NCBI GenBank assembly: GCA_025352405.1
Contig: JANXTM010000236.1
Location: 1-44,289 of the forward strand
DNA length: 44,289 bases
Direction: 5' to 3'
Source: Polaromonas sp.
GTDB taxonomy: Bacteria > Pseudomonadota > Gammaproteobacteria > Burkholderiales > Burkholderiaceae_C
Shown: piece after piece, positions 1-1,335 of the stretch
Layout: each line of letters starts with the position of its first letter
How positions within the stretch are numbered: the first letter of the stretch is position 1
Translations under genes and position numbers: made by a program
Notes under the pieces: model-generated
Databases searched by the model: none
The model's input: only the letters and a program-made list of their open reading frames with translations
Told to the model about the DNA's origin: nothing

Positions 1-232
1 GCTCGATCAACTCTTGGCGCTCGGCTGCGTTTAGCGGCGCTGCCTGCTGGACAGCGGCGGATGCCGACGCATCACGGTCTTTGGTGGCTCGAATCCAGCT
101 CAGGATGCTGGTTTCATGGCAGCCAAACTCTTTGGCTAGCTCGCTGGGCCTGCGCCCAGCGGCCACCAGCTCGATCATTTGCTGGCGAAATTGTGCCGGA
201 CACGGCGGCTTGGGGTTGTACTGTCTTGGCAT
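1..232 (-). CDS. IS3-family transposase OrfA, N-terminal part
   Basis: OrfA is the DNA-binding helix-turn-helix subunit of IS3-type transposases, normally joined to the DDE catalytic OrfB by programmed frameshifting. The minus-strand translation from the ATG at 232 begins [20 protein letters not shown] and continues through a recognisable HTH segment ([20 protein letters not shown]). A good Shine-Dalgarno (AAGGAG) lies 8 bases before the ATG. About 77 codons are visible and the rest is beyond base 1. Its insertion separates the upstream restriction-enzyme remnant from its natural C-terminus. The family is secure; the subgroup and whether the element is still active are not. Confidence 0.8.
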
Positions 233-282: not shown

Positions 283-748
283 CTCCAGTTTCCCATACTC
301 ATCCACCACGTCGTACTTGACCTGGTCGGATGTGATTTTGGCGAAGAACTTGCGAGCGCATTCAATCTTGCTTTCCTCGATTTTCCGCAGGTCCATGCTG
401 GACATGGAGCCCTTGGTTTCGGCGACGAAGTAGACGTGCTTGACCTTGCCTTCCTGGAATGCAATGGCCCAGTCCGGGTTGTAGTTACCAACCGGGGTTG
501 GTATGAAAAATCCACGTGGCAGTTTGGCGTACACCACCACTTCGGTACTGGCATCCAACTCGCGCACGAAGTCACGCTCGTTCTTGGAGTCGGTGAACAC
601 GTAGTCGTTGGCCTTCACCGCCTTGCTGAAATCTTCCTTCGGCTTGTCCTGGGTGAAGATTTCCATGGTGTGCGTGTCACCCGTGGGGTCGTAGGCAATA
701 TGCTCCACAATCACGGTCGCCTTCTGCTCGTTTATCAGGCGCGCGGCC
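283..748 (-). pseudogene. Type III restriction endonuclease Res subunit, C-terminal fragment
   Basis: The minus-strand frame encodes about 155 residues resembling the nuclease end of type III Res subunits. It contains the PD-(D/E)xK-like core NPDWAIAF followed by YFVAETKG, then a helix [21 protein letters not shown] complete Res protein is about 900-1000 residues, with a DEAD/helicase region that is absent here. At its 5' side the frame runs directly into a fragment of an unrelated gene, and at its 3' side it is cut by the IS end near 282. No mod methylase is present in the window. It is a non-functional relic of a mobile restriction-modification system or genomic island. The nuclease motif is seen; the deletion and insertion history is inferred. 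Confidence 0.75.
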
Positions 749-856
749 TGCATCGGTGGACTTACCCAATGCCTCTGCCAATTCATCGACGTACAGAACG
801 GCCTTTTTGGCACCAAACTGTTCACGCAGATCAGCCAGAATGAGGGTTGCGTCCAT
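749..856 (-). pseudogene. 5' fragment of a small element-borne (probably DNA-binding) gene
   Basis: The frame starts at an ATG (856) only 15 bases past the 3' end of tRNA-Arg. It encodes [20 protein letters not shown] and then [14 protein letters not shown] before losing its frame where it joins the Res fragment. The sequence suggests the start of a small helix-turn-helix protein of the kind found next to tRNA attachment sites of integrative elements, but I cannot name a family. Position and truncation point to an internal deletion that removed most of an island, including any integrase. Confidence 0.45.
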
Positions 857-870
857 AGGCTCCAATGTAG

Positions 871-947
871 TGGTCAGCCAGGAGGGACTCGAACCCCCTA
901 CCCATGTCTTAGAAGGACATTGCTCTATCCGGATGAGCTACTGGCTG
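871..947 (-). tRNA. tRNA-Arg (anticodon UCU), complete
   Basis: The minus-strand sequence folds as a full cloverleaf: 7-bp acceptor CAGCCAG/CTGGCTG, D-arm GCTC...GAGC, anticodon arm ATGTC-CTTCTAA-GACAT with anticodon TCT, T-arm with TTCGAGT, discriminator A, and encoded CCA at 871-873. Its acceptor and D-arm differ from the tRNA-Arg fragment 206 bases upstream, so it is not a simple duplicate. Its 3' end directly abuts the remnant of a mobile element. It reads AGA codons, and AGG by wobble. Confidence 0.93.
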
Positions 948-1152
948 TTTATCTTGATTCTAAACGGAGGCACCTTCAAGGCGGTTTTTGTTGCTATGAA
1001 AGTAGTATCAACACATTCATCTCACAAAAATCTCACCAGACTATGACGAAATATGATGACTTTTAACCGATTGAGTTTTTAAAGTGCTTTGCAAGTTATT
1101 GATTTTAAATGTATTTTTAAAATCATTCACCCTATGAAAAGGTATTGCAACA
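948..1152. other. AT-rich spacer between intact and broken tRNA-Arg genes
   Basis: About 205 bases, markedly richer in A and T than the rest of the window (runs such as TTGATTTTAAATGTATTTTT), with no convincing ORF. It lies between the two tRNA-Arg sequences and is probably the end segment of the integrated element. Confidence 0.5.
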
Positions 1153-1193
1153 CCTTAGAAGGCTGATGCTCTATCCGACTGAGCTACGGGCAG
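1153..1193 (-). pseudogene. tRNA-Arg(UCU) 5' fragment broken in the anticodon arm
   Basis: Reading the minus strand from 1193: acceptor CTGCCCG, TA, D-arm GCTCAGTCGGATAGAGC, anticodon stem and loop TCAGC-CTTCTAA, then G. After CTTCTAAG the expected pairing strand GCTGA is replaced by GGTGTTGCAA and no T-arm follows. The remnant lies just after tRNA-Pro and its terminator in the same orientation. This looks like a native tRNA gene split by integration of an element at the anticodon loop. It shares CCTTCTAAG with the intact tRNA-Arg at 871-947. Confidence 0.8.
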
Positions 1194-1258: not shown

Positions 1259-1335
1259 TGGTCGGAGTACAAGGATTCGAACCTTGGACCCCCTGGTCCC
1301 AAACCAGGTGCGCTACCAGGCTGCGCCACACTCCG
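1259..1335 (-). tRNA. tRNA-Pro (anticodon UGG)
   Basis: Complete minus-strand cloverleaf: acceptor CGGAGTG/TACTCCG, D-arm GCGC...GCGC, anticodon loop TTTGGGA with TGG, T-loop TTCGAAT, discriminator A and encoded CCA (1259-1261). A terminator follows directly. Confidence 0.96.

Follow-up and report, generated by a model that had tools for sequence, protein, structure and literature searches.

A tRNA-Arg(UCU) gene of a Polaromonas sp. genome is cut in two at its anticodon loop, and a complete tRNA-Arg(UCU) of a different type stands 206 bp further on; the draft genome yielded no other UCU tRNA. This arrangement very probably reflects tRNA-dependent integration in a host group new to that strategy, a reading that is demonstrated by the anatomy of a complete prophage in a related genome, G460, and that we extend to the Polaromonas locus, for which we infer the integrase, the far end of the element and the dependence of the cell on the replacement tRNA. 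The kind of event is already published; what is new here is the host group, a family of Burkholderiales, and the target, tRNA-Arg(UCU).

Anatomy of the split tRNA locus

The DNA analysed (the window, 44,289 nucleotides) is the whole of one contig, C175, of a draft genome of 3.78 Mb in 346 contigs that is 96.8% complete. The order along the minus strand is tRNA-Pro(UGG), the 5' half of a tRNA-Arg(UCU), a 206-bp spacer and a complete, different tRNA-Arg(UCU). The features are as follows.

1259–1335, minus strand: tRNA-Pro(UGG), host chromosome (ARAGORN); in most relatives read, the upstream neighbour of the native tRNA-Arg(UCU)
1154–1193, minus strand: 5' half of the native tRNA-Arg(UCU), 40 nt, from acceptor CTGCCCG to CTTCTAAG, a broken gene; 40/40 match to intact genes of eight relatives
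1154–1161, minus strand: CTTCTAAG, proposed crossover core in the anticodon loop; same break point in G179 and in G028 (there CTTCCAAG), and inside the 14-bp core of the G460 prophage
948–1153, minus strand: AT-rich element end, 206 bp, proposed attP arm region; GC 0.325
1093–1105, minus strand: AAATCAATAACTT, a proposed arm site for the integrase, 48 bases past the core (49 in G179); four distinct motif matches in about 1.08 Mb of fetched loci
871–947, minus strand: replacement tRNA-Arg(UCU), CAGCCAG acceptor, ATGTC anticodon stem (ARAGORN; RF00005; cloverleaf fold)
758–856, minus strand: start of a small gene (33 residues), truncated, presumed element gene; similar start in G179, similar remnant beside the tRNA-Arg of L111 (G168)
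298–606, minus strand: type III restriction enzyme, C-terminal endonuclease domain (Pfam PF19778, 3.5e-33), probably cargo of the element; its frame is the one after the truncated gene
1–232, minus strand: IS3-like transposase, N-terminal part, lying at the contig end (HTH_Tnp_1; the IS3 assignment is our reading)

The original prediction, made from the letters of this DNA, was that a native tRNA-Arg is split at the anticodon loop, and the break after CTTCTAAG, together with the intact native gene in relatives, bears this out. The half it placed at 1153–1193 is a true tRNA-Arg 5' half, but its extent is 1154–1193, base 1153 belonging to the spacer. It is not a chance resemblance, because its 40-mer recurs letter for letter in the intact tRNA-Arg genes of eight other genomes of the genus (G001, G003, G011, G012, G014, G029, G071 and G085). 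The predicted complete and distinct tRNA-Arg(UCU) at 206 bp is likewise there (ARAGORN 871–947, gap 948–1153); it folds as a cloverleaf and scores 59.7 bits against RF00005. The spacer is AT-rich as described, with a GC content of 0.325 against 0.558 in window 1200–44289. No sigma-70-type promoter and no terminator was called in 860–1360.

With few exceptions, the native gene is intact in the relatives read at this locus, so that the comparison with relatives also favoured the original prediction. In most genus loci read, tRNA-Pro adjoins a CTGCCCG-type tRNA-Arg(UCU) or a close variant of it, and the 5'-half pattern has matches in 76 of 87 genus genomes. The native 3' half continues the 5' half in 29/29 loci read, one of which (L059) is cut by the contig end a few bases on. 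Among 46 further genus loci, 42 are intact by pattern, two more (G050 and G002) by ARAGORN, and two (G046 and G025) are split; G050 and G002 had been flagged as split by the pattern and were dropped as such once ARAGORN found both intact.

In the draft genome of the window, the native 3' half was not found, either as an exact pattern or with up to three mismatches. An intact CTGCCCG-type tRNA-Arg elsewhere, which would have spoken against the original prediction, was not found in the draft either, and the count of tRNA-Arg(UCU) genes came to one, the replacement copy at 871–947 (one match to the UCU-anticodon pattern). The draft yielded 36 tRNA matches, of which 30 were fetched and named, one is the tRNA-Leu of the window and five are unnamed; a native tRNA-Arg(UCU) copy could be missing from the assembly. 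Within the limits of drafts and of the pattern, the disrupted tRNA is non-redundant, with one UCU match each in the window's genome, G179 and G028. The one UCU pattern match in G460 is the native 3' half at attR, as the pattern does not fit the phage's own tRNA.

The contig stops 870 bases beyond the replacement tRNA, and the window holds neither an integrase nor a far junction. We infer the element in the window from the truncated small gene, the restriction-enzyme fragment and the IS-like fragment, which are all that precedes the contig end. The likeness of the small gene to its relatives stops after about 33 residues, and a different frame follows. The passage from the small gene into the C-terminal part of the type III restriction enzyme, in another frame, lies at window 740–760 (minus strand) and points to a deletion within the element or to a mis-assembly. 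The 33 residues had no match in plasmids, phages or PHROGs, and in 149 genomes they matched the window itself and, weakly, two others (E ~0.34). Partial query matches came from 48 plasmid and 83 phage records, of which none, among the 20 listed of each, covered 80% of the region. Viral contigs gave 0 matches to the tRNA pattern and 0 for three attP-like spacings.

The same break in other genomes and a complete prophage

The family was scanned for a tRNA-Arg(UCU) 5' half without the invariant T-arm G following, a pattern that misses about a quarter of split halves by chance, plus tRNAs with another D arm. Six of 399 genomes matched, the window's included. In a class-wide scan of 369 genomes, counted whether or not a genome's tRNA fits the pattern, the window's genome alone matched. 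One candidate split, G318, was set aside as an intact tRNA with a shorter variable loop.

G179, a genome of another genus, offers a parallel: its tRNA-Pro is followed by a native half ending in CTTCTAAG, by 194 bp of AT-rich spacer (GC 0.37) and, before the contig ends, by a complete tRNA-Arg(UCU) that differs in type from the window's. A small gene starts 14 bases after the tRNA in the window and 20 bases after it in G179, and the two are alike (LADLREQFG in the window, LADLRKTFG in G179; 0 of 5000 shuffles as good). In both spacers the motif AAATCAA[CT][AG]ACTT has the same orientation and nearly the same distance past the core (48 bases in the window, 49 in G179). Because the whole spacers do not align significantly (78 of 1000 shuffles did as well), the case linking the window and G179 rests on the motif and its offset; the window spacer against the reverse complement of the G028 spacer was equalled by 3 of 1000 shuffles. 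The arm-like motif, drawn by eye from the window and G028 with G179 seen before the final pattern was fixed, occurs at four distinct places in about 1.08 Mb of fetched loci (overlaps included): in the spacers of the window, G179 and G028, where it is inverted, and near a tRNA-Ser(CGA). No integrase was found on the window or on the G179 contig, both of which stop a short way past the tRNA.

In the window's own genome, AAATCAATGACTT lies at L017:1931-1943 (G000:C140), 18 bases from the 3' end of tRNA-Ser(CGA), and is perhaps the left-over att arm of another element.

The complete case is G460, where 57 bp of spacer separate a half from a complete tRNA-Arg(UCU) that belongs to a further type. 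The distance from the junction to a complete tRNA-Arg of the same isotype is thus 206 bp in the window, 194 bp in G179 and 57 bp in G460. Here the element is a prophage of 46.4 kb whose 14-bp core, TGCCTTCTAAGCAG, falls within the anticodon stem-loop. The 80 kb read contain two copies of this core at a distance of 46,367 bp, and the stretch that they enclose has genes for portal (phrog_146), terminase, tape measure and tail. A tyrosine integrase (PF00589, phrog_1; a C-terminally cut sequence) lies about 100 bp before the right core, and the tRNA-Arg(UCU) lies 57 bp inside the opposite end. The native 3' half follows the right core. The flanks, when joined into the empty site, give one tRNA-Arg(UCU) by ARAGORN, and ARAGORN finds no tRNA in attL alone, attR alone or the phage junction. 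The best listed relatives of the portal protein among phage records are about 40% identical. The prediction that the host copy was destroyed and a distinct tRNA supplied is therefore supported by the same layout in G179 and G460, and in G460 the complete prophage explains it.

Four family genomes, G046, G025, G397 and G187, combine a split half with a complete tRNA-Arg(UCU) elsewhere, and none has a second tRNA-Arg in the stretch read after the half. In G046 the half lies at tRNA-Pro and a complete native-type tRNA-Arg on the same contig (C5:53929 and 4472460); in G025 the half is again at tRNA-Pro, with the complete native-type gene on another contig (C31:688895 and C7:10698). Both genomes have an integrase-like frame, which in G046 adjoins the half and in G025 the complete tRNA. 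The complete tRNA-Arg(UCU) is about 44 kb from the half in G397 (C2:165532 and 210035) and G187 (C1:206795 and 250551). From the translations and one or two ends, we read G046 and G025 as probable instances of the ordinary outcome, with the element supplying a 5' half. These 5'-half splits with a complete tRNA elsewhere are perhaps the mirror image of the usual restoration of the 3' half.

Replacement type and decayed halves across the family

The CAGCCAG-type pattern found 23 loci in the genome collection, with titles covering Comamonadaceae, Burkholderiaceae, Burkholderiales, Rhodoferax, Polaromonas, Simplicispira, Ottowia and uncultured beta proteobacteria. Exactly one tRNA-Arg(UCU) 5'-pattern match was present in 20 of the 22 such genomes that could be searched; the other two are G160, with two complete tRNAs, and G169, with the replacement and a decayed half (judged by coordinates, the same assembly as G028). 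In Simplicispira hankyongi (L105), Ottowia thiooxydans (L107) and AER2_3 (L099), the replacement-type gene stands among chromosomal genes, according to our reading of the translations; in Ottowia an integrase-like frame lies 2.2–3.4 kb upstream of it. The original prediction had taken the complete tRNA to be apparently element-borne. A foreign tRNA does stand beside the half, but a purely element-borne origin had to be dropped, because other Comamonadaceae have a chromosomal gene of this type as well. The element therefore seems to have picked up a family tRNA, and since the window's replacement tRNA differs from the genes of L105, L107 and L099 at only 2 of 77 positions, we take it for a family tRNA that has changed place. 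It could also have arrived by a route other than the element.

In six genomes (L093, L098, L100, L101, L102 and L106), the CAGCCAG-type tRNA-Arg(UCU) directly follows tRNA-Leu(UAA) instead of tRNA-Pro, so the gene has changed place. The draft of G160 (L138, L103/L141) holds two tRNA-Arg(UCU) genes: the first, of CAGCCCG type and with the anticodon arm of the window, is at the tRNA-Pro locus, and the second, of CAGCCAG type, is at a contig end after an apparent tRNA-Leu 3' end.

Several loci with the replacement type form a graded series in the state of the native half: 40/40 bases in the window, 35/40 in G028, 14 nt plus a gene remnant in G168, and no half in G005 and G027. In G028 the half ends in CTTCCAAG at the same break and is followed by a 201-bp spacer and the replacement type; a long opposite-strand frame, read as a phosphoesterase, comes after the tRNA, with no element gene in the 1.5 kb read there. 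No second UCU match was found in this genome, which is listed as 100% complete. At L111 (G168), 14 bases of the half remain (0 of 1000 shuffles, one query variant having been added after the sequence was seen), and a remnant resembling the small gene follows the replacement tRNA (2 of 5000 shuffles, with the frame chosen by eye). In G005 and G027, the replacement follows tRNA-Pro, and the longest word shared with the half is 6 bases. Nine-base words shared with the half in L095 and L108 (18 of 1000 shuffles each) were treated as unproven, a 10-base word in L113 (5 of 1000) is weak, and L092 shares no word with the half.

A tree of the neighbouring GST gene in 22 genomes, a single gene, with G028 and G027 left out for want of a GST match, nests G005 in a supported clade (100/99) in which every other member is of the native type and to which the window does not belong. 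This topology forces two changes to the replacement type; a single change was compatible with 0% of bootstrap trees. We read this as two probable acquisitions of the replacement type in the genus. The decayed halves beside the same replacement type in G028 and G168 suggest that the swap can outlive the element; G046, G025, G397 and G187, each with a half but also an intact tRNA-Arg(UCU) at another place, weigh against this view. On balance we favour, with some reserve, the broader view that tRNA-dependent integration is a recurrent route of permanent single-copy tRNA gene exchange, in which the element's tRNA remains after the element itself is gone and the native half degenerates. If true, such exchange would explain the differences in type and place of tRNA-Arg(UCU) across Comamonadaceae.

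Competing explanations and known systems

In the mechanism that we propose, a temperate phage or similar integrative element would use a short core at the anticodon loop to recombine with the only tRNA-Arg(UCU) gene of the host. Because the attP would lack the rest of the tRNA, the host gene would be cut in two and not rebuilt; the cell would survive thanks to a complete tRNA-Arg(UCU), of another Comamonadaceae type, that the element carries immediately within that end. The element in the window would later have decayed, as its truncated genes and IS-like fragment may indicate, or it remains unassembled, so that the swap may be permanent in this genome.

An element that carries its own copy of the 5' half could instead rebuild the native tRNA at its far end, the second tRNA-Arg being a passenger. 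The four genomes in which a complete tRNA-Arg(UCU) exists apart from the split half lend this some substance, yet none of them has a second tRNA-Arg in the stretch read past the half, no rebuilt native gene was found in the window's genome, and G028 has a decaying half in a genome listed as complete with a single UCU match; we consider rebuilding improbable. Nor does an origin through no integration at all, in which transfer or homologous recombination placed the replacement beside the native gene, whose 3' half a random deletion later removed, fare better. Its appeal is that the replacement type is chromosomal in Simplicispira, Ottowia and others and stands alone or after tRNA-Leu(UAA) in several genomes, but random deletion sits poorly with a break that falls at the identical base in three genomes (the window's, G179 and G028) and within the prophage core in G460, and with the shared adjacent motif and small gene, and we hold it to be quite improbable.

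The feature lies less than 1.2 kb from a contig end, beside an IS-like fragment, in a draft of 346 contigs, and a contig end joined to sequence of another organism or strain could produce such a picture. A mis-join would not be expected to fall at the anticodon loop with an arm-like motif at the offset seen in another genus (G179), however, and the GC content is 0.559 in 1–870 against 0.558 in 1200–44289, so that an assembly artefact is extremely unlikely. tRNA-dependent integration remains our preferred reading. Counting against it are the integrase and far junction not seen for the window, the draft state of the assembly, the whole spacers that fail to align significantly, the chromosomal standing of the replacement type elsewhere, the four genomes that have a complete tRNA-Arg(UCU) besides a half, and the searches of plasmids, phages and viral contigs that gave no covering match.

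The nearest known system is tRNA-dependent lysogeny in actinobacteriophages (Guerrero-Bustamante and Hatfull 2024, PMC10865867), where, according to the available text, a core of about 10 bp is used, the host tRNA is lost and the phage supplies a tRNA of the same isotype; that text also says that the strategy may extend beyond actinobacteriophages and names a Lactobacillus prophage. The present cases resemble those described there in the short shared core, the host tRNA gene that is cut and left unrestored, and the complete same-isotype tRNA on the element. They differ in the host, a Burkholderiales family, in the Arg UCU isotype, in the decayed or unassembled state of the window's element, and in being known here from sequence. 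A junction that disrupts the tRNA is seen in G460 (14-bp core, no tRNA at attL or attR), and at the left junction of the window, the readable one, the half stands with no native 3' half following.

The accessible portion of PMC11476347 reports two prophages of Sinorhizobium meliloti, similar to vB_MloP_Lo5R7ANS, that inactivate tRNA-Leu(UAG) and put a replacement in its place, and the paper already speaks of tRNA gene substitution and diversification. The likeness lies in mid-gene integration that inactivates the tRNA and in a prophage tRNA resembling that of other bacteria; unlike those resident prophages of Alphaproteobacteria with a tRNA-Leu target, the relatives studied here have decayed halves suggesting that the swap outlives the element. 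Ordinary integrative elements of tRNA genes (Islander, PMC4383910, in its available part) share the site-specific recombination at a tRNA gene and the split target. They restore that target, whereas no restored native gene was found at the window's one readable junction or in the draft genome. Prophages that do not inactivate and replace a tRNA are described in the available part of PMC12429752.

Among the open-licence papers listed, we saw no report of tRNA-dependent lysogeny in a Burkholderiales host. With these findings, a strategy recently reported for phages reaches a family of Burkholderiales and the tRNA-Arg(UCU) gene, and one complete prophage offers a test case; the decayed halves suggest that such elements can permanently alter the tRNA set of a host. 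This bears on foreign-looking tRNA genes and on phages carrying single tRNAs, and it suggests that detection methods based on a restored tRNA would miss element ends of this kind. A survey of Variovorax (PMC9658991), in its available part, lists a prophage in tRNA-Arg(TCT) whose att sequence was not identified, and this may be another case.
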